A stretch of DNA of 42,700 bases, from assembly GCA_017854775.1 (NCBI GenBank), contig JAFMHC010000015.1:1-42700 (forward strand), read 5' to 3'. Within the stretch, counting starts at the first letter, position 1. Each line of letters starts with the position of its first letter. Of this stretch, positions 7,597-31,242 are shown one piece after another. The stretch is from Gammaproteobacteria bacterium (GTDB lineage: Bacteria; Pseudomonadota; Gammaproteobacteria; Arenicellales; Arenicellaceae). The notes under the pieces are model-generated. The model was not told the origin of the DNA, searched no databases, and saw only the letters and a list, made by a program, of their open reading frames with translations. A program made the position numbers and the translations under genes.

Positions 7597-10503
7597 ATGA
7601 ACACTATTTTAAACATAACTAAATCGCTCTCTCGGACTCTGCTCCTTGCTCCTGTACTGATAGCTACCGCGCTGAGCTTTTCGATGTCTGCCAGAGCTGG
7701 CGGACCACTTGAAGTTTGTGAACCGGGTGTGCCGTATCTATGGCCAAACGGTGGACAGAACGTACCATTTAATCCGGACCAAGGTGCTCTGGGCATTCTA
7801 GACAGTGCCTCTGCTGTACAAGCAGTAACTGACGCATTTCAAGCTTGGGGGGACGTGCCAACGGCGACCATCAACTATTCCAATCAAGGCATCTTGCCAA
7901 TAGACGTTGATATTTCAAACTTCACTCCTTTCTTGCAAGCGACAGGCCCCGATGGCCTCTCGGCGATTGTGTTTGACGACACGGGTGAGATCTTCGACCT
8001 ATTGTTTGGCGCAGGTTCGGGAATTCTGGGATTTGCCGGCCCAGAATTTCTGGATGAGCCAACGTGTAGCATCGTAGAGGGGTTCTCTTTCTTAAACGGC
8101 CCAGCGATTGACAGTCTTGATGGCCTATTGGATTTGATGGTGCATGAGTTCGGCCACTATTCTAATCTTGCACACACCGAAGTGAACGGGCAGATTTATG
8201 GCAACGGCGACCCGAGTGGCCCGGGAGCGGACGACACCACCTTTGGCACTGCGCCATCACCGTTTGATCCAGGCTTTGATGTAATCGAAACCATGTTTCC
8301 ATTCTTATTCTCGGATATTGATCAAGTAGCACGTACACCACATGCTGACGACGAGGCTGCACTCTCTAGACTATATCCAGAAAATGACTTTGCCGCTACC
8401 ACCGGCAGCATCAGCGGCACCCTGCGGTTTGGTAACGCCAAATTAACCGGTATAAACGTTATTGCGCGAAACCTAGCCAATCCGTTTGAAGATGCGGTAT
8501 CAGCCATCAGCAGTGATTTTACCCGTGATTACAGTCAGGGCAATGCTGTGACCGGCACATACACTCTGAGCGGGCTAACTCCAGGAGCGGAATACGCTGT
8601 ATTCGTCAATGAGTTACTTTCTGGAGCCGATCGTTTTAGTACCCCTGCTAGTTCCCCGCCAGGACCGGAAGAGTATTTTAACGGTGCCAACGAATCTGGC
8701 GACGGTAATATCGACATTCCTACCGACTTTACAATTATCACTCCAGTTGCGGGTGCGCCAGTAAGCAATACCGACATTATTTTCAACTTGCCTTTACCAG
8801 GCGAGCCACTTAATACTGGAGACGATGGTAATGTCGCGCTTCCACTACCATTCGAATTTTGTATTGCAGGTGAAAGCTACAGCACGGTCTTCGTCAACGG
8901 CAATGGGTTTATGACCTTTGGTGCGGCCGACAGTTCCTTTTTGAATTTCTCAGAAAACGAAGCTGCTTTCTTATCCGGAGCTCCGCGGGTTGCCGCATTT
9001 TGGGATGATTTATCGCCTAACGTTAGCGGCAGTGTGTTTTATCAAGCAACCGATCATACTTTTACCGTAACCTGGGATTCAGTGCCTGAATTCGGCATCA
9101 TTGATGGCACCAGTTCGAATACTTTTAGCGTCGAACTACGCGATAATAGTTTCTTATGCACAAGCACCTCATCTGGTAATCGTCATTCCTTCAACAGGTT
9201 TCGCTCTGAAATTAAAATCACACATGGCGATATGACCGCAGTCGATGGATTGGTCGGCGTCAGTTCTGGCATAGCAACTACCAGTCAATTCGAGGCCGAG
9301 GTAGATTTAAGTGCCGAACGAGCGCACGGCTTTTTTGGGAAAATCCAACTGCTTACTGAAGCCGCGAGACACGAACTTTTCAGTGATCCAGATGAATTCG
9401 ATTTAGCTAACGGCGAACTGAAATTCATCGGTGTCGGCACCGGTTATCGTGACCGCTACGAACGCCGAACTCGTTATTTTAAGCGCAACAACTCATTAGA
9501 AACAGCCAGCAACATAAGGCTGCCGTTTGACAGTAAAGATACCTTTAGAGACTACACGGCTTTATCGCCATCGGGTGATGACGTGGATTTCTATCAACTT
9601 CGAGAGCCGCTAAAAGCAGGCACTACCTTGGTAGCAGAGGTGCTTACCGGGCAAATTGACAGCGTGTTAGGTCTCTACCGATGCAATAATCTGTCAGCGG
9701 GTAATCGGCACTCATATTCGGGTAATCGTTATTATCATGGTCGTTCTACTCGCTGTGATGCAGATGACGCTGAGTTAGTGGCGTCGAATGATGATAGCAA
9801 CGGCGTGTTATCGAAAATTGTTTATGAAGTACCTGAGGACGGTGTGTATGTGATTGCCGTCAGTTACTTTGGTGACTTGGACTTCGACGGTGAAGACCCT
9901 GGTCAAGGCGCCCCCTTTGACGGCGGACGATACGTTCTCGATGCCTTTGTTGTTGATGGGTCGCTTATTAGCTTAACTGACGACTCAGCATTAGAGCTTG
10001 ATCTCGGCTTCGACTTTGCCTATCAAGGGGCAAGCTACAACACTGTTTTTGTCAATTCTAATGGTTTCCTTACCTTTGGCGGCGACAGTGCGGGGCAGTT
10101 TTCACCAAGCATCGCTGACTTTGAAAGCGGCCTACCCCGAATCGCGCCCTTGTGGACCGACCTGAATCCGAGTGCCGGTGGATTAATTGTTGCAAGCCCT
10201 GACGATGGCAGTTCGAAAACCATCTCATTTGCCGGCGTACCTGAATTCTCGTTCTCAGGTGACGGAGGGACTAATTCATTCTCGGTGACGCTGAACGCAG
10301 ACAGCACTATTTCAGTGAATTTTGCTGATATCAGCGCACAGTCAGCTCTAACCGGAATCGCGGCGGGTGGCGGCGCAATAGGCACATCAACAGACCTATC
10401 AAGCGCAGCCGACCTTAGCGTGTTCGGAACGATTTACGAGGAGTTTTTAACCACCACTAACGAGTTCGACTTGGGTAATTCCACACTACAATTTGAACCC
10501 TGA
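7597..10503 (+). CDS. Large secreted metzincin-like metalloprotease with repeated beta domains
   Basis: This is a 968-residue exported protein. After a signal peptide (cleavage probably after SARA, about 34) comes a matrixin-like domain with HEFGHYSNLAH at 183-193, which matches the zinc site HExxHxxxxxH except that Asn replaces the usual Gly before the third ligand. A Met-turn candidate, ETMFPF, follows. Next is a region with a carboxypeptidase-regulatory or Fn3-like look (about 270-340). Then come two copies of a domain with TVFVNxNGFxTFG (about 405-610 and 790-968). Between them lies a PPC-like domain with DVDFYQL (about 625-770). The repeats probably bind or assemble on surfaces. AAGGAGG precedes the ATG. 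It is likely secreted and proteolytic; the substrate is unknown. Confidence 0.88.
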   Translation: MNTILNITKSLSRTLLLAPVLIATALSFSMSARAGGPLEVCEPGVPYLWPNGGQNVPFNPDQGALGILDSASAVQAVTDAFQAWGDVPTATINYSNQGILPIDVDISNFTPFLQATGPDGLSAIVFDDTGEIFDLLFGAGSGILGFAGPEFLDEPTCSIVEGFSFLNGPAIDSLDGLLDLMVHEFGHYSNLAHTEVNGQIYGNGDPSGPGADDTTFGTAPSPFDPGFDVIETMFPFLFSDIDQVARTPHADDEAALSRLYPENDFAATTGSISGTLRFGNAKLTGINVIARNLANPFEDAVSAISSDFTRDYSQGNAVTGTYTLSGLTPGAEYAVFVNELLSGADRFSTPASSPPGPEEYFNGANESGDGNIDIPTDFTIITPVAGAPVSNTDIIFNLPLPGEPLNTGDDGNVALPLPFEFCIAGESYSTVFVNGNGFMTFGAADSSFLNFSENEAAFLSGAPRVAAFWDDLSPNVSGSVFYQATDHTFTVTWDSVPEFGIIDGTSSNTFSVELRDNSFLCTSTSSGNRHSFNRFRSEIKITHGDMTAVDGLVGVSSGIATTSQFEAEVDLSAERAHGFFGKIQLLTEAARHELFSDPDEFDLANGELKFIGVGTGYRDRYERRTRYFKRNNSLETASNIRLPFDSKDTFRDYTALSPSGDDVDFYQLREPLKAGTTLVAEVLTGQIDSVLGLYRCNNLSAGNRHSYSGNRYYHGRSTRCDADDAELVASNDDSNGVLSKIVYEVPEDGVYVIAVSYFGDLDFDGEDPGQGAPFDGGRYVLDAFVVDGSLISLTDDSALELDLGFDFAYQGASYNTVFVNSNGFLTFGGDSAGQFSPSIADFESGLPRIAPLWTDLNPSAGGLIVASPDDGSSKTISFAGVPEFSFSGDGGTNSFSVTLNADSTISVNFADISAQSALTGIAAGGGAIGTSTDLSSAADLSVFGTIYEEFLTTTNEFDLGNSTLQFEP

Positions 10504-11757: not shown

Positions 11758-12432
11758 TTAGTATGCGCCGCGGGCTTTCAGCACCGCAGGAATTGTTTTT
11801 AATAAAACCCAAAGGTCGAACCATAGGTTTTGTTTTTCAATGTATTGGATGTCGAGCTTCACCTGTTGTTCGAAGGGAATGTCGGAGCGGCCAGATATTT
11901 GCCATATGCAGGTAATACCTGGGGTAACGACCAATCGGCGCCGGTCGGCTCGCGAGTACTCTGATACCTCAGAGGGAAGCGATGGACGAGGCCCCACTAG
12001 AGACATTTCTCCTTTGAGCACATTCACCAATTGCGGCAATTCATCGATCGATGTTTTACGGATTAATATGCCCACACGGGTAATTCTAGGGTCGCGTTTC
12101 ATCTTAAATATTACCCCAGTCGACATCTCATTTTGTAATTCTAAGTCATGCCGCTGTGCTTCTGCATCGTTAGACATAGAACGAAATTTCCACATTGTAA
12201 ACGGCAAACCATTCAAGCCAACTCGGTCTTGTTTAAATAAAACGTCGCCTTTTGATTCGAGTTTTATTAAGGTCGCCACCAGCACAAATAGCGGGCTAAG
12301 CGATAACAGAGCGGCAAGTGCGACTAGGATATCTAGAGTGCGTTTGCTAAACGGCATAATCGCAAAACGAATTTTCCAGATAAAATGGCCAACTTTCGCT
12401 CTAAACGATAATTTAAGTTTAGAGCTGGTCAT
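11758..12432 (-). CDS. Initiating sugar-phosphate transferase (WcaJ/PglC-type)
   Basis: This 224-residue monotopic phosphoglycosyl transferase places the first sugar-1-phosphate on undecaprenyl phosphate at the inner membrane, starting repeat-unit assembly. It has the re-entrant membrane helix (about 33-58, broken at Pro47), FKQDRVGLNGLPFTMWKFRSM, the catalytic Asp130-Glu131 pair in SIDELPQL, and NVLKGEMSLVGPRP. C-terminal PGITCIWQISGRSD is also typical. It is a short form without the N-terminal membrane domain of WcaJ. It overlaps the upstream gene by 14 bases, so translation is probably coupled. Confidence 0.94.
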   Translation of the reverse strand: MTSSKLKLSFRAKVGHFIWKIRFAIMPFSKRTLDILVALAALLSLSPLFVLVATLIKLESKGDVLFKQDRVGLNGLPFTMWKFRSMSNDAEAQRHDLELQNEMSTGVIFKMKRDPRITRVGILIRKTSIDELPQLVNVLKGEMSLVGPRPSLPSEVSEYSRADRRRLVVTPGITCIWQISGRSDIPFEQQVKLDIQYIEKQNLWFDLWVLLKTIPAVLKARGAY

Positions 12433-13681
12433 TACTTAGCTCCTTGATTTCGGAACGTATTGCTTTGCTATCGCGTGAAGCACGCGCCGCGCGCAGCAAG
12501 AAGAGTGGGTTCCCGACTAAGTAACGGGCACCTTTATCCAACGGTTGCGCGGCTAGCCGCCAAACCCATTCTAATGACAGCTCGCGTAACCAAACAGGCG
12601 CGCGGGACACCTCCTCTGAATAGAAATCAAATAAGCCTCCAACACCAATAACCGCGTTGATTCTAAGATAGGGTGCATTGTTAGCGATCCATCGCTCTTG
12701 GCGCGGGGCGCCCAGAGCAACAAGCAATAGCTCAGCACCACTTTGATTGATTAAGCCATGTAATTTTTCGGGGTTAGTGTGGTGGCTAAACCCATCGCTA
12801 TAGCCCGCAACTTTAAGAGACGGATATTCAAGCTTTAATTTGGCGGCCACCTTATTAACAACCGAATTGCTAGCGCCGAGTAAATAGACACTCTTTTCGC
12901 TTGCGGCTAATTCATCGCATAAGAGTGGGAACATATCAGTGCCATTGACGTTTTCAGCCACAGCGATGCCTTGCCAGCGGGCCGCTATTTTAACTCCAAT
13001 GCCGTCAGCAAAGACTGTATCGAACTCATTCAACGTTTGTTTATAACTTGGATCCCGAGAATACTTATTGGCACAATCGGCGTTTACAAATGCGAACCGG
13101 GTGGCATCCCCTAGAATCGGCGTACGATTTAAACTTTTAATTACTCGGTTCACCGCCTCTCTCATACTCAGGTTGGCCAGTGTAACGCCCAGCAATTTAA
13201 ACCTTTCAGGAGCGTATAAACCGCGCGGAGCTGAGTTGATAAGACGTTGTAAAAACCAAATCGCAAAGATCTGCACTCGTCGAAGGTCGGTCGCTGTGTT
13301 GGCAAAGTCGCAAGCGAGTTGGTTCTCATCTTGATGTGCAATACCCGATACTCGTTTGATCTGAAAAGGAGAAATGATGCCCGGAGCAATGTTTAAACGT
13401 GTGCGTTTATCTCGATCTAATTTACTGGCCGCTTCAAATTCAATTGGGTGAGGCCCAATAAGGTCGTAGGCCCCCTTTAAATAGAGAAACCATGTATCAA
13501 TATCGCTTAGCGCTGTATTAGCTACGGTTACCGTTCGGTGTTGTAGGCGCTGCATATTTTTACCAGCGTATTGCTGTACATAAAGCGTGATCTTCTTTTG
13601 ATGGTACCAAGCCAATAAACACTGGAACCCAACTTTCGGTAACACCAGCAATAGCATTGTTACTCCTATAAATACTCTCAT
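12419..13681 (-). CDS. Fusion: degenerate sugar-transferase domain + WecG/TagA/CpsF glycosyltransferase
   Basis: This 420-residue protein has two parts. Residues about 1-150 look like a decayed phosphoglycosyl transferase: an N-terminal membrane segment, LYLKGAYDLIGPHP matching the NVLKGEMSLVGPRP motif of the adjacent gene, and IAPGIISPFQIKRVSG matching its PGITCIWQISGR. The Asp-Glu catalytic pair is lost (SDIDTWFLY where SIDELPQL is expected). Residues about 165-420 are a WecG/TagA/CpsF (GT26) transferase with FVNADCANKYSRDP, FADGIGVKIAARW, GAPRQERWI and GVGGLFDFYSE. It probably adds the second sugar. The ATG at 13681 has GGAG seven bases upstream; a TTG at 13729 is the alternative. Confidence 0.88.
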   Translation of the reverse strand: MRVFIGVTMLLLVLPKVGFQCLLAWYHQKKITLYVQQYAGKNMQRLQHRTVTVANTALSDIDTWFLYLKGAYDLIGPHPIEFEAASKLDRDKRTRLNIAPGIISPFQIKRVSGIAHQDENQLACDFANTATDLRRVQIFAIWFLQRLINSAPRGLYAPERFKLLGVTLANLSMREAVNRVIKSLNRTPILGDATRFAFVNADCANKYSRDPSYKQTLNEFDTVFADGIGVKIAARWQGIAVAENVNGTDMFPLLCDELAASEKSVYLLGASNSVVNKVAAKLKLEYPSLKVAGYSDGFSHHTNPEKLHGLINQSGAELLLVALGAPRQERWIANNAPYLRINAVIGVGGLFDFYSEEVSRAPVWLRELSLEWVWRLAAQPLDKGARYLVGNPLFLLRAARASRDSKAIRSEIKELSNDQL

Positions 13682-13695
13682 GACACCACTCCAAA

Positions 13696-13710
13696 TGATA
13701 AATATGATAC
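13696..13710 (+). promoter_or_regulatory. Tandem TGATAA site 1 (putative regulator-binding site)
   Basis: TGATAA-ATA-TGATAC: two direct half-sites with a 9-bp period, just upstream of the ribosome site of the WecG-fusion gene. It matches the sites at 13765, 13889, 13922 and 25265. Confidence 0.65.
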
Positions 13711-13764
13711 TATATATTACTTGATGCAATATTTATCATTTCAATCTCCAAGTCAACGCATAAA

Positions 13765-13779
13765 TGATCATTATTATCA
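13765..13779 (-). promoter_or_regulatory. Tandem TGATAA site 2
   Basis: On the minus strand this reads TGATAA-TAA-TGATCA, again with a 9-bp period. A further single TTATCA half-site lies at 13733-13738. Confidence 0.6.
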
Positions 13780-13888
13780 CTATAAAACATGTATTTAACC
13801 AATTTTTACAGTTTGATTTCTATAAATGGCTTTAATATTTACCATAAACCATTGTTATATATCAATTTAGTAACGATTAACCCATTAT

Positions 13889-13903
13889 TGATAAAAACGA
13901 TAA
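13889..13903 (+). promoter_or_regulatory. Tandem TGATAA site 3
   Basis: TGATAA-AAA-CGATAA, 9-bp period, one mismatch in the second half-site. It lies about 110 bases before the wza-like start. Confidence 0.6.
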
Positions 13904-13921
13904 TCGACCCATTGAATTTAA

Positions 13922-13936
13922 TGATAATAATGATAC
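13922..13936 (+). promoter_or_regulatory. Tandem TGATAA site 4 at the putative EPS-export promoter
   Basis: TGATAA-TAA-TGATAC, 9-bp period. A plausible promoter overlaps it: TTGAAT at 13912-13917 and TACTAT at 13934-13939 with a 16-base spacer. The site would then sit between or over the -35 and -10 boxes of the polysaccharide export operon. The promoter boxes are a weak match and are inferred. Confidence 0.6.
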
Positions 13937-14013
13937 TATGCTTCTATTGAAATAACCGCTAAGCAAACTTAGTGGCTGGACATTGCGACCAAAGCAAAAA
14001 TGAGGAAAACAGT

Positions 14014-15201
14014 ATGAAATCATTAAACACAGCGAGTAAATGCCTATTGCTGGCGTGCTTGATGTTGGTGCTCGGTGCGTGTGTGGTAGTGCCTAAGGAG
14101 CTTGATAGTCAAGATCAGGATGATGGGCAGCATTTTTCGCGCAAAGTTATTGATGCTAAGCCTATCAGCTTGCATGGCTATGCTGATCGGGCCACTGCAC
14201 TGAGCGAGCATGAGTCTGGTTGGTTTTACCAAACTACGTTTGTTCGCGGCGATATGCTGCGCTTTCAAATTGTCGGAATGGAGCAATACGATGGTCTATA
14301 TAAGGTGACCTCCGAAGGAAATATAGACTTGCCGTTTGCGCCATCATTTCCAGCGACTAAGTTAACTCGAAAAAACCTGATAAATAATATTGAGGCCGAA
14401 TTAGTCCGCTTGAAATGGTTCTATAAAGATTCGGTGAACGTTGATGTGAGTGTGGTGCAATTGGCATCGATCAATGTGTCGGTAATCGGCGCGGTATTTA
14501 ATCCAGGAAGAGTGACGATAAATAGTCAGCCAATCACAAAACCCGAAGAGGCAATACAGCAGGCTTCAGGGGCATTCTCTTCAGGTCGCAACTTAGTCTC
14601 GGCCTTAGGAGCTGCCGGCGGGATCCGACCCGATGCCGATATTTCTAGGGTCTATATTAAGCGTGGCAACAAGGTCTTACGTGTACCTCTAAACAGCCTG
14701 ATTGACGGCGACGGCTTCGTCGAGATGCCTAGCCTAATCAATGGCGACCAAATCATTGTTCAATCAGCAGGGTTTGTTAACCCATCCTTGATCAAACCCA
14801 GCCAAGTAACACCGCCAGGGATGAGGGTCTTTATGTCTAACCTAACGGCTCCCGCACTGAGTAATGCGCAATCGGCTGTGGGCTCGGATTCGACTCGTCT
14901 ACCTTATGGTTCATCATTACTCGACTCTGTCATTTCAGCGAACTGTATCGGCGGAACACATCAAGCCAATGCCTCTCGAAGTGTGGTGTTGGTGACTCGC
15001 AATCATGGCTCAAACCAACAATTGGTGGTGCAACGATCAATTAACCAACTGCTAGCCAACAGCAGCAATCGGTCGGTTAATCCTTTTATGATGCCAAATG
15101 ATGGTATCGCTTGTTACGATTCACGGTTCACTAATTTTCGCGATGTGGCACGCGGCATTGGCGAAGTAATCAGCCCTATATTGTTAGGACGCTTGCTATG
15201 A
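14014..15201 (+). CDS. Outer-membrane polysaccharide export lipoprotein (Wza-like)
   Basis: This 395-residue lipoprotein has lipobox LVLGAC with lipidated Cys23. The poly-export domain (about 75-165; GDMLRFQIVG, then DLPFAP) is followed by two SLBB-like regions (about 170-205, with NVSVIGAVFNPGRV, and 205-270, with GGIRPDADISRVYIKRGN). In Wzx/Wzy systems it forms the export channel. The C-terminal part (about 270-395) is longer than the SLBB core and contains cysteines. The ATG at 14014 is chosen over one at 13972 because of GAGG at 14002-14005 and the signal peptide. Its stop overlaps the next start (ATGA). It heads the plus-strand export operon. Confidence 0.9.
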   Translation: MKSLNTASKCLLLACLMLVLGACVVVPKELDSQDQDDGQHFSRKVIDAKPISLHGYADRATALSEHESGWFYQTTFVRGDMLRFQIVGMEQYDGLYKVTSEGNIDLPFAPSFPATKLTRKNLINNIEAELVRLKWFYKDSVNVDVSVVQLASINVSVIGAVFNPGRVTINSQPITKPEEAIQQASGAFSSGRNLVSALGAAGGIRPDADISRVYIKRGNKVLRVPLNSLIDGDGFVEMPSLINGDQIIVQSAGFVNPSLIKPSQVTPPGMRVFMSNLTAPALSNAQSAVGSDSTRLPYGSSLLDSVISANCIGGTHQANASRSVVLVTRNHGSNQQLVVQRSINQLLANSSNRSVNPFMMPNDGIACYDSRFTNFRDVARGIGEVISPILLGRLL

Positions 15202-19967: not shown

Positions 19968-20990
19968 TTAAATTATTCTATTCATTACTTTACGTTGTAG
20001 AGCTTGTGGCATTAAGGCCAAGCCAAGGCTGGCAACCGATGTTTCAATTGTCTTGCGCAGCTCTTGCGTTAGCGCAAGTGGGCTAGTTTTGAAGGCGTTC
20101 CACATTAAGCTTAACGCTAGCTTGCCCTGCCCCTGAAACACACATCTTCTTGCGAGGTAGCGATACTGAAATGCTTTAGCGATAGGGCCATATTGTTTTG
20201 CGAAGCGTGGCGCATAACTCTCAAGTTTTACTAACAACGCTGACCAGGTTTCAAATTGTTTGTCTACGTCGGCTGATAAGCCACCTGTGTTTAATCGGTA
20301 GTTAGTAAGAGGCTTGTCGATATAATGAAACTGAGCGCCAGTTAATAGAGCGATACGGGTCCAACAATCAACGTCCTCTGATTGTCTTAGCGCTTCGTCA
20401 AAGTACTGAATATATGGCAGGCCATTGTCGGTTTTGTCGTCCGTGGTAAAAGCGATTTGTTGCAATACGCCTTTACGAATGACTGGCACCGAACCATTGC
20501 CGATAGGGTTGCGGCAAAAAATATCGTTGGCCTGAAAACCGTGCTTTTTCTTTGGCGCTTGAAGTCGGCCAAGTGACTGGCTTTGTTCATCGACAAATAG
20601 CGATGAGCAAAAACTAACGCCGCAATTGGGCTCTGCTTGCATTAAGCGTATGTGCTGTTCAATTTTATCAGCCTGCCAGAAATCATCAGAGTCCAAAAAG
20701 GCGATGTACTCACCGTTAGCATTACGAATGCCGGTGTTACGTGCCCCAGCAAGGCCTCGATTTTTTTGCTGCACAATGCGAAGTCGCGGGTCGCTGAATT
20801 TTTGTTTTACAAGAGCGATAGACTGGTCGGGGCTTTGATCATCGACCACAATAATTTCCAGATTGAGATAGGTCTGTGCAAGCACCGAGCTAAGCGCTTT
20901 CTCGATATATTGTTCAACGTTATAGACCGGGATCACCACACTAACCAGTGGTGTTGATTTGTTTGTCTCGATGTTAGTGTGTTTTGGCAT
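19968..20990 (-). CDS. GT2-family glycosyltransferase
   Basis: This 340-residue protein is GT-A fold, family 2. It opens with VSVVIPVYNVEQYIEKAL and has IIVVDDQSPDQS and IAFLDSDDFWQADK, which contains the DxD. QSEDVDCWTRIA is the likely acceptor-side acidic region. It is a second chain-assembly glycosyltransferase of the cluster, but lies in the minus-strand operon with the nitric-oxide sensor genes. Its start overlaps the end of the flippase gene by 17 bases, so translation is probably coupled. The C-terminal 100 residues are basic and may contact the membrane. Confidence 0.92.
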   Translation of the reverse strand: MPKHTNIETNKSTPLVSVVIPVYNVEQYIEKALSSVLAQTYLNLEIIVVDDQSPDQSIALVKQKFSDPRLRIVQQKNRGLAGARNTGIRNANGEYIAFLDSDDFWQADKIEQHIRLMQAEPNCGVSFCSSLFVDEQSQSLGRLQAPKKKHGFQANDIFCRNPIGNGSVPVIRKGVLQQIAFTTDDKTDNGLPYIQYFDEALRQSEDVDCWTRIALLTGAQFHYIDKPLTNYRLNTGGLSADVDKQFETWSALLVKLESYAPRFAKQYGPIAKAFQYRYLARRCVFQGQGKLALSLMWNAFKTSPLALTQELRKTIETSVASLGLALMPQALQRKVMNRII

Positions 20991-22323
20991 ATTCAGTGTT
21001 ACCCAAGGTAGAGTTTGTTATTTTGCTTTGAGCCTCATGTGAGACTAGCAGCGCATCGTCGCCAAACACTTTTCGCCAAACGTAGGCTAAATAAAGTGGG
21101 TGGCTGACGGCATAGATAATTAAAATTGTACTGGCTACAGCGGTCAGGCTAATGTTCACGGCGATACTAACTGAGACAATAAAGATCACGGTAAACACCA
21201 TGTTCCATTTGAAATCGAGGTCGATACGGTCGGTGGCTAAAGTCAGCGCCGAGGCACTTTCGGCTAACGGTCTTGGCAATGCTGATAAACACAATAAAGT
21301 GAGAATAGGAACGGCGTTAAGCCATTGATCACCAAACACAATCGGTACATAAATAAAGGCTAAGCCAGCTTGTAGAGAGATCAGTGGCACCGCAATCAGG
21401 GCTATTTTCTTTAAGTTGCCAACGAAGCGTGCCTTTAATTCAATGGCATTGTCCTTTACCGCACAAAGGTTGGGATAGAGCGCTGAATTTATGGCGTTGA
21501 TCAGGGTTAAGCTAAAACCTAAGCCTGCATTGCGCGCAAAATAATAGAGCCCCAAGGCTTCCATCCCAAGTACTCGCCCAATGATCATGTTGTCGAGGTT
21601 TAGGCGCGCGGTTTTTAACAACTCTATACTTAAGTAGTAACGCCCAAATTGCAGCACATCACGCCAAAGCTTAAAACTGAAGAATGGGCCGCTTGGTTTC
21701 CAGCGATAAGCATAGCGATAACCAAACACCCAGATCGGTGAGGTAAGAAATTTAGGTAGAACGATGGCCCATGCACCTAAGCCTGATAGGGCCAACAATG
21801 TGGTGATCACGTTGTCGATGCCCACTTGACCGCCGTCAATTAAAGCCACCGTTTTTAAACGTTGGTCACGTTGTACTAACGAAGCTTGCACCATGCCGAA
21901 TGGCATTAACAAATAGGTTAATGATAATACTTGTAGCATCGGCACTAACTCTGGCGTGGCGTAAAACTGCGCCAAAGGATAAGCCGCGGCACATTGAATG
22001 AAGAATAAACTAATGCAAAATATAAAATTGAGACGATAGGCTGTGTTAGTAATTGCCTTCAAATCATGGTCTGAACACTGAACGATCTTGGCGCCAATAC
22101 CGTTTCGGTTAAATACACGTATCAGCTCGTTGACGGTTAACACCAACGCTGCCAAACCAAATAGCAAGGGGTCCATAACGCGGGCTAATACGACCGCCGT
22201 AATCAGACGCGTAATGCGCACAAAAAGTTCGCTAGCGCCAAGCCAACCTAAGTTATGTAGAAATAGGTTCTCCGCTCGACCCGATGTGAGAGCCTTTATG
22301 CTATTTTTTAGACGAATAAACAT
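20974..22323 (-). CDS. Oligosaccharide flippase (Wzx/WzxC-like)
   Basis: This 449-residue integral membrane protein has about 12-14 hydrophobic segments and belongs to the polysaccharide-transporter branch of the MOP superfamily. The N-terminus has NLGWLGASELFVRITRLITA followed by AVVLARVMDP. LYYFARNAGLGFSLTLINAINSA (helix 7-8 region, given in part) is typical of WzxC-type proteins. It moves lipid-linked repeat units across the inner membrane, supplying the Wzy protein. It is 15 bp downstream of the hybrid-kinase gene and so is co-transcribed with the regulator, sensor and kinase genes. This places export under the same promoter as its regulator. Confidence 0.9.
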   Translation of the reverse strand: MFIRLKNSIKALTSGRAENLFLHNLGWLGASELFVRITRLITAVVLARVMDPLLFGLAALVLTVNELIRVFNRNGIGAKIVQCSDHDLKAITNTAYRLNFIFCISLFFIQCAAAYPLAQFYATPELVPMLQVLSLTYLLMPFGMVQASLVQRDQRLKTVALIDGGQVGIDNVITTLLALSGLGAWAIVLPKFLTSPIWVFGYRYAYRWKPSGPFFSFKLWRDVLQFGRYYLSIELLKTARLNLDNMIIGRVLGMEALGLYYFARNAGLGFSLTLINAINSALYPNLCAVKDNAIELKARFVGNLKKIALIAVPLISLQAGLAFIYVPIVFGDQWLNAVPILTLLCLSALPRPLAESASALTLATDRIDLDFKWNMVFTVIFIVSVSIAVNISLTAVASTILIIYAVSHPLYLAYVWRKVFGDDALLVSHEAQSKITNSTLGNTEYAKTH

Positions 22324-22338
22324 GACGAGTATCAGCGC

Positions 22339-24087
22339 CTAACCCAGAGCATCCAACTCTTGTTGGATAAGTGGTTTTAGCTCTCGCATTATTTGATCAA
22401 CATCGGCAATATGCTTGCTGAGGTTACTTGAATTCGGTTCGTTTTCGATTTGCAAAAGAGCATTAGCTAAATGGCTTAGACCAATGCTACTAGCAGCGCC
22501 TTTAATTGAATGGCAGACACCTTTCACTTTGTCGGTGTTGCCGCTATTGGCAAATTCTTTGAGCTGCTCTAATTCACCATAGGCATGATCTAAAAAAGTG
22601 GGCGCTATGGCCTTAAAAATATCTTTGTGTGAATCGCCAAATTGGGTTTTAAGATAGGTAAAGTCGAACGATTCGAATTTTGCTTGTTCAACGATGCTAG
22701 TCGGCTCCATAAAACTACCTCCAAAATCAGGTTTGACCCACAGCGTTCTAGGCACGTCGTTCAGTGCCGCGGCTAGTTGGCCGAGGCCCAGAGGCTTGCT
22801 TAAAAAGGCATCAAAACCCAAATTCAACAAACGTTCGCGTTGATCTTGGTAACTTGATGCAGTAAGGGCAATGCAGTAGTGCTGCGAGGTTGCTTTTTTT
22901 GCTGCACGTATGGCCTTGATAGTTTCTTCACCGTTCATAACCGGCATCAGAATATCGAGTATCACCACGTCGTAATCGTTGTGTTCGAGCTTCGCCATGG
23001 CTTCGGCGCCATTATTGGTAACCTCTGCTTGTTGACCTAGTTGAGCCAATTGGGCGGTAATTACTTTTTGATTGGTAGGGTTATCCTCTGCCACCAATAT
23101 CTTTAAAGTCGGCAGTGACGCGATCGTTGGGCTTTTAGCACGAACAGCACCTTGATCTGCGTTGGCCAGTGCTTGTACCGGCAGATTAAGTTCAAAAATA
23201 CTGCCACGGCCGACTTTACTCTCGCAGGTGATTTTACCCATCATCAGCTCACTTAACTGCTGGCAGATTGCCAACCCAAGGCCCACCCCTTGATCGGGCC
23301 GACCAATTTGCTCGTAGGCGTTGAAAATCCGTATTATTTGATCCGCTGGAATGCCCACGCCGGTGTCGACGACCTTAACCTTAAGCATGCCCATGCCCTG
23401 CGAAATTACATCACTCTGATAAGAAATATCCACGAGGATGCCGCCTCGCTTTGTGTTCTTTAGCGCATTTGCAATAAGGTTATTAATAATTTGTTTATAG
23501 CGCCCTTTATCGATGGAAACCCTTTTCGGCACTGTATCATCCATTCGAAAATCCAACTTCAAGCCTTTGTCTTTGGCTTCTAAGCTAAACATCGTCATAA
23601 TATTTTTATGGATGCGGCGCATGTCTTCGGCTTGCGGGTTTATATTAACGCGCCCGGCTTCAATTTTAGTGATATCAAGCATATCGCTGAGCAATACGAT
23701 TAGCGATCTAGCTCCGCTGTTGATGGTATCTAGGTAATCGGCCTGAGCGTCGTCGAGTTTGCTTTTGAGTAAGATCTCCGACAAACCAATGATGGCGTTT
23801 AGTGGGGTTCTGACTTCATGGCTCATTTGCCCCATAAAAGCAGACCGATCGTTTAGCGATGCTTGTAAGCGCTGATTGGTGACACTGAGCTCATAGGTAG
23901 CTTGCTTGATGTCGTCCTCAAGTTTTAGCTGGCTCGACTCGAGCGCCTGGTTAGCCTCAAAAAGCTCTCGCGATTTCACTTCGAGTACGCTCTCAGCCTC
24001 AGCGCGCGCCTTCTTTAAACGCTTACACCGTGCCTGAGAAAGCTCCAGCCTTTTCTTTGTATCTTCTTCCATGACGCTGATCGGCAA
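22339..24087 (-). CDS. Soluble hybrid histidine kinase, HisKA-HATPase-REC-HPt (H-NOX partner)
   Basis: This 582-residue cytoplasmic kinase has no membrane segment. It begins with a coiled coil (about 8-80), then HisKA with FMGQMSHEVRTPLN (His90) and an ATPase domain with NALKNT (Asn207), DTGVGIP (241-247) and GVGLGLAI. A receiver follows (about 328-440; acidic pair at 334-335, phospho-Asp378 in ILDILMP, Lys431). A C-terminal HPt has VCHSIKGAAS (His526). With no sensor domain of its own, it should take input from the H-NOX protein encoded just before it, as in known H-NOX kinases. The start is TTG at 24087, next to the H-NOX stop, or ATG at 24072. Confidence 0.94.
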   Translation of the reverse strand: MPISVMEEDTKKRLELSQARCKRLKKARAEAESVLEVKSRELFEANQALESSQLKLEDDIKQATYELSVTNQRLQASLNDRSAFMGQMSHEVRTPLNAIIGLSEILLKSKLDDAQADYLDTINSGARSLIVLLSDMLDITKIEAGRVNINPQAEDMRRIHKNIMTMFSLEAKDKGLKLDFRMDDTVPKRVSIDKGRYKQIINNLIANALKNTKRGGILVDISYQSDVISQGMGMLKVKVVDTGVGIPADQIIRIFNAYEQIGRPDQGVGLGLAICQQLSELMMGKITCESKVGRGSIFELNLPVQALANADQGAVRAKSPTIASLPTLKILVAEDNPTNQKVITAQLAQLGQQAEVTNNGAEAMAKLEHNDYDVVILDILMPVMNGEETIKAIRAAKKATSQHYCIALTASSYQDQRERLLNLGFDAFLSKPLGLGQLAAALNDVPRTLWVKPDFGGSFMEPTSIVEQAKFESFDFTYLKTQFGDSHKDIFKAIAPTFLDHAYGELEQLKEFANSGNTDKVKGVCHSIKGAASSIGLSHLANALLQIENEPNSSNLSKHIADVDQIMRELKPLIQQELDALG

Positions 24088-24633
24088 TTACTCGCCGTCT
24101 CCAGTTCGTATCGTAAAGTGCGCCGACTTGTGGTCTTGCCCTATGTCGCTAGTGAGCAATTCTTCATTGTTACCGAAAAATTTAAGGCAGGCCCCAACCA
24201 GCGAATGCGCCACTAATGCTAGCGGGCGAGGTGAGGTGTAAGACAGGGTTAAGATAGCGCCCTGCTGAGTATAACTAAACGAGGGTAGTTCGGCATCAGG
24301 ATAGAGTTTTTTTACCTCTACGTGAATGTGGTCATCGATCTGTTTCAGCATTTCAGCGGCGCTTCCTACGTTATCAAAAAATAGGCTGTAGTCACGTTTA
24401 AAAACCATAAATAGATGGTCTGAAAACCTTCCTAGTAACACCGTTGCCTCGGTCTCAGTTTCAGCCACGGCTTGCGTCAGCAATTGGATGAGTTCTTGGT
24501 AATCATAGAGGCCGACTCTCGAGTAGGCTCCGTCTGATTTAACCCCGCTGTCATCGATTATTTTTTGAGCCGTGTCTTCGCCCAACTCTTGTTCGATAAA
24601 TTCAACGAACTCTGACAATATAATTCCTTTCAT
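24088..24633 (-). CDS. Stand-alone H-NOX haem nitric-oxide sensor
   Basis: This 181-residue protein is an H-NOX domain (MKGIILSEFVEFIEQELGE at the start). The proximal haem ligand is His104, in HIHVEVKKLYPDAELPSF, by spacing to Pro117. The YxSxR motif that holds the haem propionates is Y132-T-S134-P-R136. By my alignment the distal Tyr that lets some H-NOX proteins bind oxygen (Tyr140 in the Thermoanaerobacter protein) is Val141 here, so it should prefer NO. Bacterial H-NOX proteins usually inhibit or control a co-encoded kinase. It lies 5 bp after the HTH-receiver gene and abuts the kinase gene. A GAGGG ribosome site precedes the ATG. Confidence 0.95.
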   Translation of the reverse strand: MKGIILSEFVEFIEQELGEDTAQKIIDDSGVKSDGAYSRVGLYDYQELIQLLTQAVAETETEATVLLGRFSDHLFMVFKRDYSLFFDNVGSAAEMLKQIDDHIHVEVKKLYPDAELPSFSYTQQGAILTLSYTSPRPLALVAHSLVGACLKFFGNNEELLTSDIGQDHKSAHFTIRTGDGE

Positions 24634-24638
24634 AGTCG

Positions 24639-25223
24639 TTAACCCTCAGGCGAAGCATCAAGTGATAGTTTTTGCATGATGCTTTTCTTTAATTGTTCAA
24701 CGTCAACCGGCTTAGTAAAATAATCAACGCCCGATGGGATTCCACCTCGGTCTTGAATGCTCTCTGGGGTTAGCCCGCTAATAATAATAATTTGGTCGCT
24801 AGTCAATAGCTCTGATTTATACATCGAGCGAATCATTTGTAGGCCGTCCATTCCAGGCATATAAACGTCAGAGATAACCAAATCGGGCACTTTTCGCCCA
24901 ATCTCTACCAAGCCTTCAAAGCCATCGTTTTTAACCGTTACGCTAACCGGTAGGCCCCATGAATTGATTGCGGCCTCATAGAATTTTGAAACAGTTGGAT
25001 TGTCTTCTACAACTAACACATTTTTTTTGTCACCCTTAGTGTCATGAGTCGTTTGGTGTTTACTAATATATTCTTCAACAGATGCTGCAACAATTCGACG
25101 GTGACCACCGGCCGTTTTCCAGGCGTCTAATGCGCCACTCTCCACCCACAATTGCACCGTCCGAACGGATACGCCGAGTAGCTTTGCCGCTTCAACTGTG
25201 GAGTAATATTCTTTCTCTTTCAT
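24639..25223 (-). CDS. HTH (MerR/BldC-type)-receiver fusion response regulator
   Basis: This 194-residue regulator has an unusual domain order. Residues 6-46 are a MerR/excisionase-like winged helix (YYSTVEAAKLLGVSVRTVQL, then TAGGHRRI, as in BldC-type proteins). Residues 66-186 are a receiver with acidic pair E73-D74, phospho-acceptor Asp119 (VISDVYMPGMDG), Ser149 and Lys171 (YFTKP). Most response regulators have the receiver first. It should receive phosphate from HPt His526 of the neighbouring hybrid kinase. The ATG at 25223 has TTGGA upstream; an in-frame start at 25280 would encode a tail without domain sequence and overlap the TGATAA site at 25265-25279. It heads the sensor operon. Confidence 0.93.
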   Translation of the reverse strand: MKEKEYYSTVEAAKLLGVSVRTVQLWVESGALDAWKTAGGHRRIVAASVEEYISKHQTTHDTKGDKKNVLVVEDNPTVSKFYEAAINSWGLPVSVTVKNDGFEGLVEIGRKVPDLVISDVYMPGMDGLQMIRSMYKSELLTSDQIIIISGLTPESIQDRGGIPSGVDYFTKPVDVEQLKKSIMQKLSLDASPEG

Positions 25224-25264: not shown

Positions 25265-25279
25265 TTATCATTTTTATCA
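25265..25279 (-). promoter_or_regulatory. Tandem TGATAA site 5, upstream of the HTH-receiver gene
   Basis: On the minus strand this reads TGATAA-AAA-TGATAA, a perfect tandem with a 9-bp period, 42-56 bases before the start codon. A further half-site (TGATAA on the minus strand) lies at 25315-25320. It suggests autoregulation by the HTH-receiver protein. Confidence 0.68.
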
Positions 25280-25374
25280 CTAATCAATATGAAAACGTGA
25301 CTTTTTAGCTATTTTTATCATTTAAATCGCCACCAAGTCAGTTTGAATTAATGGACACGTGGGTTCCAAGCGCG

Positions 25375-28206: not shown

Positions 28207-28914
28207 CTATGGCGCTGATTCAATGTTCAACTGGCTGGTAATGGTTAGTCGCATTGCACTTAATTTGCTAGTAGCCATCTGTTTATGGCTTAGCCGATGC
28301 AAGCGAATATTGCCAGAGTGGAGCAGTGACGCAGGGTAAATTACAGCACGATTAAACTTGGCATCAACCATTCCGATTTGCTCGAACAGCGGGGTATCGC
28401 CATTGACGTATTCTGCAGGCGGGAGGCCATGCGTGGTCGCTTCACGCCCTAGAGCCTGTTGAAAAACGCGCTCACTCTGGCCATCAATACGCTCTATATT
28501 GGTGCTGCGATGACGATAAAACGCAGTTCCACCCCACTCCGGCACGCATAGGTAGTGCACCAGAGCAAACTGCTGCTGACGAGCAGTATCGTAATGTGGG
28601 ATGCGCTGAATCGGCAACAACTCACTCGGCAGACTATTCGCTATGGCGTATACGCTAGCCTGCAAACCACCCACCGTGCCGCGCACTATGCCGAGCATGC
28701 GAGAAAAGTCATCGGCGTATCGGGCAAAATTTGTTGCATAACTATCGTCGTCAAGCGACTGCTTAACTCCTGGGTAAAAGTCGTTTTTATAAGGATCAAA
28801 ACGTGAGATATCACCGGCATTATTGACCAGTGTCGTTGGGGCTTGATGAAAGTCATCAATGACGACAATCGGCCAACGCCCGGTGCCAATAAAGAAATGT
28901 TCGAACTTACCCAC
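28207..28914 (-). CDS. DUF6445-like protein with 2-oxoglutarate-dioxygenase-like residues
   Basis: This 235-residue soluble protein matches, from memory, the DUF6445 family that accompanies halogenase-like and SapC genes near TonB receptors. It shows the spacing of an Fe(II)/2-oxoglutarate enzyme: IPHYDT (H107, D109), LLHSGNI (H199) and MRLTIT (R222), so a double-stranded beta-helix oxygenase is likely but not proven. GGTAFYRHRST is also characteristic. It starts with GTG overlapping the SapC stop (TAGTG), so the two are translationally coupled. Its substrate is unknown. Confidence 0.75.
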   Translation of the reverse strand: MGKFEHFFIGTGRWPIVVIDDFHQAPTTLVNNAGDISRFDPYKNDFYPGVKQSLDDDSYATNFARYADDFSRMLGIVRGTVGGLQASVYAIANSLPSELLPIQRIPHYDTARQQQFALVHYLCVPEWGGTAFYRHRSTNIERIDGQSERVFQQALGREATTHGLPPAEYVNGDTPLFEQIGMVDAKFNRAVIYPASLLHSGNIRLHRLSHKQMATSKLSAMRLTITSQLNIESAP

Positions 28915-29642
28915 TAAGCGCTCTCAAACCAACTTTTAGCGGTATCAAGCATTCGGTTTTTTCGCGCAATTAAATTTGGTAATTGATGCATAGATGTCTG
29001 TAAATTATGCATAAGACCGATTACCCCAGATCGATACAAACGCAGCACTACTTGATCGTCTAGCTCGGCCAATTTATTTTCGTCAATCATGTACGCTCCT
29101 TGCACAGCCTGCTTGCTTCTATCTGTAAACTCGATGTCGAGTCTGAACGGTGTCAGCAGCTTTAGCTCGACCAATTCGGAAACTAATTTCTGAGACTCAA
29201 TCTCACCGCTCAACAACTGGGTCAAAATCTGTTGAACCGTCAGCAAGTAATCACTGGCTTGCGATTGAGCGTTAAATAGTGGCTCACCATCATCATCGCT
29301 CAAGGCCAAGCTATCAGAGTCAAAGCAGACCACCTTGCTGTCTTGGTCGTCGCCAACGAAAAAAGGCTGTCGCTGAATTTGCAATGGCTCATAGTCGGCA
29401 TCCCACCGGCCCTCTCTAACGAATAGATTCTCTCCTGGCTGAAACCCCATCATGGCTGAAAAGGTAAACTCACCAGTGTCTGCATTTTTTGTCACGATAA
29501 TCGGAAAACATGAACTAGCTCTCCCAAACTCAGCTGGAACTACTGGCATTAAATGTTGATTGATCGCACTGCTATGGCGCTGGCTTGCTTGCACTCGTAG
29601 CTGCGAATGTTTATCAAAATTCAGTGATACGATATTGCTCAT
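28914..29642 (-). CDS. SapC-family protein
   Basis: This 242-residue protein fits the SapC family (PF07277), named after a gene near a Campylobacter S-layer locus and not the Sap peptide ABC transporter. Family features include FPIIVTKNADTGEFTFSAMM, GENLFV, and a WDADYEPLQIQRQPF segment. It has no signal peptide and no membrane segment. Its biochemical role is not known. In marine Proteobacteria it commonly sits beside halogenase-like and DUF6445 proteins and a TonB receptor, as here. A strong GGAGGAG site precedes the ATG at 29642. Confidence 0.86.
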   Translation of the reverse strand: MSNIVSLNFDKHSQLRVQASQRHSSAINQHLMPVVPAEFGRASSCFPIIVTKNADTGEFTFSAMMGFQPGENLFVREGRWDADYEPLQIQRQPFFVGDDQDSKVVCFDSDSLALSDDDGEPLFNAQSQASDYLLTVQQILTQLLSGEIESQKLVSELVELKLLTPFRLDIEFTDRSKQAVQGAYMIDENKLAELDDQVVLRLYRSGVIGLMHNLQTSMHQLPNLIARKNRMLDTAKSWFESA

Positions 29643-29700
29643 AACTCCTCCTAGGTTGCGCCGATTGTTTCGGCTGTTTTATTTTGAAACGCTTGTATTT

Positions 29701-31242
29701 TTAAATTGCCTGCATGCCGTAGTCGTGAATTTTATTAATCAGTTCACGGTGACTCGGAAGCTTAGCTAACGCTTGCTGAGTTATTTGAGCATTGCGCTGA
29801 TATTCTTGTTCAGCATGATCACGGCTTAACATCGAACGTCGATGGTTTTGCTTATCGATATCGAACCCCATGCCATATAAAACATACTGGTAACTTGCCG
29901 CCGGAAACACTTCATTGCTGGAATCGAAATCAAGATTACAGGGCACTTGATAGCGCCATAATTCAAGCTGCTCAGCTAGCGATTCAGACACTGAACTAGG
30001 GTCTGACATTGAACGCCAAAACGGCTCATCTCGTTTGCTTAGCAAGTAATGCAGTTTTAGAAAATCAATAATGCGTTGCCAGCGATATTGAAACGTTGTG
30101 TTGAATCGTTTGGCAACGATAGTCATCGCTGAACGTGTTGCCGGTAGCTGCTCAGCAATCATGTTAGCTGATAACTCAACAAGCACAATCGCGGATGCCT
30201 CTAGTGGCTCTAAAAAACCCGCAGACAAACCAACGGCGACACAATTTCGATGCCAAAAATAGTCACGGTGACCTGATTTAATATCAATACGGCGTGGCTC
30301 ATTAATAATTTTATGCTCACCAATATACTTTCGAAGCTCGTGTTCAGCTTGATCGTCACTGATGTAATCACTGCTGTAGACGTAACCAACGCCACGACGG
30401 TGTCGTAAGCCGATATCCCAAATCCAACCTGCGCTTTGGCCGGTAGAAATGGTGTGACAGGGTATCGGGCTGTCTGGCTCTGGGTAAGCAACATGTGATG
30501 CTAACGCACGGTCTATTTGCAGTACTGACGAGCAGTCATTAAACGGCACGCGGTAATGCTTGCCGATTAACAATGCGCTAAAACCGCTGCAATCGACAAA
30601 CAAATCACCCTCAATCTGGCCTGCCTGTGTGGTGACTAAGGCTTGAATATCGCCCTCCTCGTCGTTCAATGCCGTTTCTACGTCAGCGAGTATGTGAGTA
30701 ACACCAAGCGATTCTGTGCAATGCTTTTGTAGATACTGAGCAAACTTTCCTGCATCTAAATGATAGGCATAATTTGCCACCGAACTGTATTCGGGTGTAG
30801 AAATCAGTTTTGGGGCTATGCCATTTTCACAAAGTTGCTCTTGGAAACAGACCGCATTAGAGAATGAAACGCTATTCTCATTGCTTAGCCAATGAGTAGC
30901 GAGGTCGGTTGTTGGAAACCCTTGCGGGATCATCAACGGATGATAGTAGAAGTCGTTATCGCAATTTTCTGACCACTTAGCAAATTTCGCGCCTTGCTTA
31001 AATGTAGCGTCGCACTCCCGAATAAAATCCGTTTCACTTATTCCTAAGCGTTTAAGGGTGGCGCGCATGGTCGGCCAAGTACCTTCGCCAACACCAACAA
31101 TCGGGGTGTTCGGCGATTCAACTAAGGTCACTCGAACTGACCGATCTGGCCGCCGCTGTCGTTGTTCCACGGCAAGCCGCCCAGCCGTCAACCAGCCGGC
31201 GGTGCCGCCGCCAACCACAACTATCGAATCAATCGTTTTCAT
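29701..31242 (-). CDS. Tryptophan-halogenase-family flavoprotein
   Basis: This 513-residue FAD enzyme has the dinucleotide site GGGTAGW (11-17) and the catalytic-Lys region ATFKQGAKFAKW (Lys82) of flavin-dependent halogenases. The family signature WxWxIP is GWIWDIGL here (about 272-278), with Gly for Pro. VDCSGF and GFLEPLEAS are conserved FAD-side motifs. The family halogenates indoles and other aromatics with reduced FAD; members linked to TonB receptors have no proven reaction that I know of, so halogenation is not certain. No flavin reductase gene is next to it. AGGTGA precedes the ATG. Confidence 0.88.
   Translation of the reverse strand: MKTIDSIVVVGGGTAGWLTAGRLAVEQRQRRPDRSVRVTLVESPNTPIVGVGEGTWPTMRATLKRLGISETDFIRECDATFKQGAKFAKWSENCDNDFYYHPLMIPQGFPTTDLATHWLSNENSVSFSNAVCFQEQLCENGIAPKLISTPEYSSVANYAYHLDAGKFAQYLQKHCTESLGVTHILADVETALNDEEGDIQALVTTQAGQIEGDLFVDCSGFSALLIGKHYRVPFNDCSSVLQIDRALASHVAYPEPDSPIPCHTISTGQSAGWIWDIGLRHRRGVGYVYSSDYISDDQAEHELRKYIGEHKIINEPRRIDIKSGHRDYFWHRNCVAVGLSAGFLEPLEASAIVLVELSANMIAEQLPATRSAMTIVAKRFNTTFQYRWQRIIDFLKLHYLLSKRDEPFWRSMSDPSSVSESLAEQLELWRYQVPCNLDFDSSNEVFPAASYQYVLYGMGFDIDKQNHRRSMLSRDHAEQEYQRNAQITQQALAKLPSHRELINKIHDYGMQAI

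Follow-up and report, generated by a model that had tools for sequence, protein, structure and literature searches.

Which protein reads the tandem motif TGATAA-N3-TGATAM that recurs in a 42.7-kb stretch of DNA from an Arenicella-group bacterium, and what is controlled in this way? The stretch, called the window below, is one contig of a 4.86-Mb genome (G000). It carries two divergent exopolysaccharide (EPS) operons and, some distance away, a gene for a response regulator in which a BldC/MerR-like helix-turn-helix (HTH) domain of the HTH_17 type is followed by a receiver domain (REC); the motif is found between the two EPS operons and again in front of the regulator gene. The original prediction regarded this shared motif as the operator of the HTH-REC protein, and comparison of sequences supports that assignment. 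We consider it probable that a phosphorelay linked to the haem gas sensor H-NOX controls this BldC-type regulator, which would bind head to tail on the tandem sites, regulate its own gene and switch the EPS operons, likely by repressing them. In what follows, G, L and C with a number denote genomes compared, loci, and contigs of the source genome, respectively.

Sequence inspection and a scan of the window showed that the coordinates of the five sites first noted are correct and that each site has direct half-sites at 9-bp spacing, but the strict pattern is matched by only three of them: 13696–13710 (plus strand, TGATAA-ATA-TGATAC), 13922–13936 (plus, TGATAA-TAA-TGATAC) and 25265–25279 (minus, TGATAA-AAA-TGATAA). 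The remaining two have one mismatch each, in the second half, namely 13765–13779 (minus, TGATAATAATGATCA, with spacer TAA and second half TGATCA) and 13889–13903 (plus, TGATAAAAACGATAA, with spacer AAA and second half CGATAA). Within the window, the strict form is confined to two intergenic regions, as first noted; a looser GATA-N5-GATA form is also present in coding sequence. On a genome-wide scan, the check suggested along with the motif, it proved to be rare rather than frequent: the strict pattern has 7 occurrences in the whole genome, 3 of which are in the window, against 0.06 expected there if matches were spread evenly (P 2e-5, for a motif that was itself picked from the window). The four strict matches elsewhere did not provide additional targets. 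Three of them (on C62, C265 and C376) are within open reading frames, and the fourth, before a flavin reductase gene (C6:2985), is unique to the source genome and absent from the orthologs.

Lack of conservation in related clusters had been named as an observation that would speak against the motif; instead, it is conserved before both gene sets across this marine genus. TGATA-N4-TGATA is present a few tens of base pairs upstream of the start in 14 of 15 regulator orthologs, corresponding to the exact 25265–25279 site of the window, and the 15th (in G015) has a one-mismatch version, TGATAAAAATGAAAA. The plus-strand EPS operon starts with a gene (14014–15201, identified by Pfam) for an SLBB/Poly_export outer-membrane polysaccharide export protein, which has orthologs in 11 other genomes of the genus, and exact tandem sites precede it in all 12 genomes that possess it, usually at least two per promoter. 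When matches to TGATAANNNTGATA were tallied in the 14 regulator-bearing genomes of the genus, 38 of 91 were in regulator or EPS promoters, which represent only about 0.016% of the DNA, whereas in the four genomes that lack the regulator none of 14 matches was at a promoter of these types. G013 and G016 have kept the regulator gene with a tandem site at the regulator promoter only, and no SLBB ortholog was found in these two genomes, of which G016 is 81% complete. A site retained at the regulator alone is the pattern to be expected if the HTH-REC protein regulates its own gene. The source genome yielded no second copy of the regulator, other matches being to the receiver and not to the HTH.

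The arrangement of the half-sites is informative as well. In 27 promoter regions, 37 same-strand TGATA pairs at 9 bp were counted, against 0.2 expected from dinucleotide shuffles, and further same-strand peaks occur at 31, 33, 41 and 42 bp (4, 7, 7 and 4 pairs, with about 0.1–0.2 expected for each), distances that are close to three and four helical turns. No excess of inverted repeats was found in these regions, where convergent or divergent TGATA arrangements reach at most 3. This agrees with the earlier argument that direct rather than inverted repeats suit a BldC-like HTH. The longer spacings are also visible in the window: the 13889–13903 site is 33 bp upstream of the 13922 site, a pairing that is shared by G003, G007 and G009; a single TGATAA half-site in the wecG-side promoter (13733–13738, minus) is 41 bp from the half-site at 13779, and 41–42 bp spacing recurs in the genus; and an upstream TGATAA half-site in the regulator promoter (25315–25320, minus) is 41 bp from the 25265–25279 site, with an equal distance in G003. 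Arrangements like that at 13765–13779 were found in G006 and G015 (second half TGATCA) and in G007 and G009 (second half TGAAAA).

With promoter boxes read from sequence alone, a TTGA[ACT] element is present 7–10 bp upstream of 17 of 36 exact sites, and the second half-site then overlaps the −10 box, as illustrated by TTGACT-N16-TACTAT in G014. In the promoter of the SLBB operon, a TTGAAT −35-like box starts 10 bp upstream of the 13922–13936 site, which overlaps a TACTAT −10-like box. A complex bound to such a site, which occupies the −35/−10 spacer and reaches into the −10 box, would cover the core promoter. The minus-strand EPS operon starts with a WecG/TagA-type glycosyltransferase gene (12419–13681, assigned by Pfam and translation, with its start re-set to ATG 13681). 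The 13696–13710 site is just upstream of this start, and the 13765–13779 site is upstream of a TTGACT −35-like box; in G000, G006 and G015, the wecG side also has a site just upstream of −35. The regulator itself (24639–25223, minus) very probably starts at ATG 25223, a methionine conserved in its orthologs, and not at GTG 25280 of the raw open reading frame, so that the 25265–25279 site should be noncoding and 42–56 bp upstream of the gene.

The regulator gene is the first of an operon, entirely on the minus strand, that also encodes an H-NOX (HNOB) haem gas-sensor protein (24088–24633; Pfam E 1.9e-28, with YTSPR as its YxSxR-type motif), a hybrid histidine kinase of HisKA-HATPase-REC-Hpt architecture according to Pfam (22339–24087), in which inspection showed the REC and Hpt acceptor residues to be retained, a Wzx-type polysaccharide flippase (20974–22323) and a GT2 glycosyltransferase (19968–20990), the last two identified from Pfam and synteny. 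The H-NOX and kinase genes had no part in the original prediction. The order of the five genes is kept in four Arenicella loci (L016, L017, L019 and L020), and the first three genes also occur together in L052 of a genome from another family (G034). In a class-wide H-NOX survey no second close pairing of H-NOX with HTH-REC was found outside the Arenicella group, except for a weak one at L266, where the 9-bp signal is weak as well.

The probable binder is related to a protein whose mode of DNA recognition is established. In the structure of BldC on DNA, the protomers are arranged head to tail with one 9-bp direct repeat each, and Arg30 contacts the G of a TpG step (PMC5859096). The HTH of the window protein matches BldC (6AMA; phmmer E 4.2e-4) with the GGHRR wing aligned, and its AlphaFold model (pLDDT 85) has the helix and strand order of a winged HTH, matching BldC. 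The BldC interface residues V23, W31, T42 and G44 and wing residue H46 are kept, while F21 is replaced by L and I40 by W, both of which are hydrophobic. The best PDB sequence match of the HTH is 8JBS, a MerR-like regulator of the CarH/LitR type; unlike the window protein, such regulators have a cobalamin-binding output domain and no receiver. Classical MerR features are absent, since a receiver replaces the C-terminal coiled-coil and the half-sites are not inverted. A fold search with the whole model returned receiver domains only among the best 50 matches listed and was uninformative on the HTH. The receiver (Pfam Response_reg) has its acid pocket (E73, D74), the phospho-acceptor D119 and K171 invariant in 14 sequences. 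Because of this C-terminal receiver and the missing Arg30, we call the regulator BldC-like and not a BldC.

The most probable mechanism is one in which the HTH-receiver protein encoded at 24639–25223 has the tandem motif as its operator, with two BldC-like HTH domains bound head to tail to two 9-bp units of consensus TGATAAWWA TGATA. Where site pairs are 31–33 or 41–42 bp apart, further subunits could bind on the same face of the DNA. At the SLBB and regulator promoters, occupation of the spacer and the −10 box would block RNA polymerase, which would result in repression of the EPS operon and negative autoregulation. The H-NOX protein and the Hpt-bearing hybrid kinase of the same operon may set the phosphorylation state of the regulator and cause it to be released or re-arranged, and EPS synthesis would thereby be tied to nitric oxide (NO) or a similar haem ligand. 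We infer binding, sign of regulation, phosphorelay and signal alike, NO being suggested as ligand by membership of the H-NOX family. As to the sign, repression is somewhat favoured: the sites extend over the spacer and the −10 box, and HnoC, which is similar in function, acts as a repressor (PMC8738867).

It is also possible, with a smaller chance of being correct, that the same protein uses the same sites mainly as an activator, either by remodelling the spacer in a MerR-like manner or from upstream sites, in which case EPS production would rise on binding. The promoters of the MerR family have over-long spacers of 19–20 bp, whereas the apparent spacers here are about 16–17 bp, and overlap of the second half-site with the −10 box also argues against activation. 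On the other hand, sites in the −35/−10 spacer are found with MerR activators too, the wecG-side site is upstream of −35, and BldC binding introduces a bend of about 50 degrees into DNA (PMC5859096).

Compared with known systems, the locus appears to resemble BldC in the geometry of its operators, and HnoC or the Vibrio fischeri H-NOX circuit in its signalling. With BldC of Streptomyces (6AMA, 6AMK; PMC5859096) it shares a related winged HTH with a GGHRR wing, 9-bp direct repeats in variable number, and units that on the matching strand begin with TG and end AT-rich (TGTCCGAAT, as does TGATAAWWA here); BldC differs in having 68 residues, no receiver, Arg30 where Leu is found here, another unit sequence and no link to H-NOX or a kinase. 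For the present family, the likeness to BldC in repeat geometry is one of sequence repeats and not of bound DNA. In V. fischeri the syp relay ends in the sigma54-type SypG. There, the H-NOX-regulated hybrid kinase HahK feeds an Hpt phosphorelay that controls exopolysaccharide genes, so that H-NOX, hybrid kinase, Hpt and EPS genes are common to both systems, and the Hpt domain of SypF is believed to carry the output (PMC8738867). In the window, by contrast, an HTH-REC protein of the same operon with tandem operators of its own would provide the output. A response regulator of the HnoC kind would be linked to H-NOX, would occupy an inverted repeat in tetrameric form, as HnoC reportedly does, and would be released by phosphorylation; we regard this as unlikely for the window protein, whose sites are direct repeats, a comparison made at the level of the operator. 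The resemblance lies in HnoC of Shewanella oneidensis being an H-NOX-linked DNA-binding response regulator, which represses its own H-NOX/HnoK network (PMC8738867).

The 9-bp repeat belongs to the wider HTH-REC family as well, a point that the original prediction did not raise. HTH-REC homologs were drawn from 369 genomes in the class, 398 in the phylum and named contigs, and reduced to 82 below 65% identity, and the 200 bp upstream of each gene was scored for repeats of period 5–15 against dinucleotide shuffles. Repeats had been noticed by eye in part of the set before scoring, and the phylum sample was drawn afterwards. The mean z was 2.17 at period 9 and between −0.17 and 0.28 at the other periods; z exceeded 2.5 at period 9 in 32 of the 82 cases, against 0–3 at other periods and 12 of 250 control regions upstream of other genes in the same loci (Fisher P 4e-13). 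TGATAA-type units precede the HTH-REC gene in L140, L172, L180 and L215, and in L140, which is from another gammaproteobacterial family, about six such 9-bp units follow each other. Other units are found in L202 (TGCAAGATT, three times), L232 (TGGACGATT, reverse strand), L177 (TGTCTCGTT-TGTCCTTAT) and L148 (CGATTAAAA), while L139 has a near-perfect tandem array of about five 9-bp units of CGGAAATAT.

The units vary together with the protein. Of 41 periodic cases, 40 could be placed in register on a YpG step shared by two or more of their units (column-permuted null 32.6, sd 2.1), and units are more alike where the recognition helices are more alike (Mantel r 0.21, null sd 0.07), for cases that were selected by z > 2 and a register that was chosen by rule. 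The third base of the unit tracks residue 30 (p 0.0005) and residues 29–30 (p 0.0005): HY goes with TGC (7/7), QL with A (8/12), KR with G (2/2), and TR, SR and RR with T (one case each), while BldC, with T29 and R30, reads TGT on the corresponding strand. It seems rather more probable than its opposite that a broad, essentially uncharacterised family of BldC-like HTH-receiver proteins across the Pseudomonadota reads 9-bp direct repeats head to tail by a readable code, in which units open with YpG and residues 29–30 set the third base (QL TGA, HY TGC, KR TGG, TR/SR TGT), so that operators would be predictable, and in which phosphorylation governs how oligomers assemble on the repeat. In the literature searched, which did not cover most subscription journals, we found no account of HTH_17-REC regulators with 9-bp tandem operators.

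Several observations weigh against the mechanism proposed for the window. The equivalent of BldC Arg30 is Leu in the window protein, Arg being found in some HTH-REC relatives only, and the base contacts of the regulator must therefore differ from those of BldC. On the wecG side, the position of the site upstream of −35 suits activation as well. Of the 82 relatives, 50 are below z 2.5 at period 9; L139 and L153 share the QLW helix, yet their units differ from the TGATAA type; and the permutation tests on covariation of helix and unit ignore common descent.

The sites could also be Fur boxes, or operators of some other palindrome-binding regulator with the HTH-REC gene merely among the targets, and TGATAATAATGATCA at 13765 is indeed one mismatch from the Fur 7-1-7 consensus. 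This is very improbable, as the palindromic GATAATnATTATC-type box and a convergent half-site excess are absent, the conserved positions repeat directly, the sites accompany EPS genes and the regulator, and 9-bp repeats track the HTH-REC family even where the unit sequence is different. A search with the Fur pattern (591 places at three mismatches, against 382 for the reversed control) was too loose to be of use. That AT-rich promoter DNA, with its UP elements and −10-like boxes, produced the pattern by chance or promoter constraint alone is hardly credible and, as sole cause, is refuted by the shuffle and control tests: even though there is overlap with the −10 box and TGATAAT is similar to extended −10 sequences, 37 pairs stand against 0.2 in shuffles, the pattern is rare genome-wide, and in relatives 9 bp is the only period enriched, in comparison with 250 control upstream regions.

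Some further observations concern motif copies and genes outside this circuit. An identical TGATAAATATGATA is present between Maf-like and Gfo/Idh/MocA genes in two species (L111 around 2041 and L115 around 1992; G007 and G012). Since G012 has no regulator, this site is not evidence for the regulon and was rejected as a member; it may reflect another protein that reads the motif, or chance. In G011, one more pair of tandem sites, divergently arranged (L109, 1631 and 1665), is located upstream of a sugar-transferase (Bac_transf) gene of an EPS cluster, and in G008 TGATAAAAATGATA is found just upstream of a gene for a mandelate-racemase-fold, galactonate dehydratase-like protein (L112, around 1968). 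Within the window, the EPS cluster is adjoined by a gene for a 968-residue protein with a nidogen-like (NIDO) domain (7597–10503), and DUF6445, SapC and tryptophan-halogenase-like genes are present in series at 28207–31242, beside genes for an MFS sugar transporter and a MocA oxidoreductase.

The description of BldC as a head-to-tail reader of its operators made it the founding case of a structural family. The genus-conserved motif, together with the 9-bp repeats that distant relatives have of their own, suggests that DNA is read in the same manner by a family of signal-controlled regulators that has received little study. The geometry of BldC on DNA would then recur among a large number of two-component regulators, where sequences covary strongly enough for the operators to seem predictable, and in the present locus one small regulon would link a gas sensor to EPS production. 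If this is true, the targets of an unannotated class of response regulators could be read from genomes, and their operators predicted from protein sequence.
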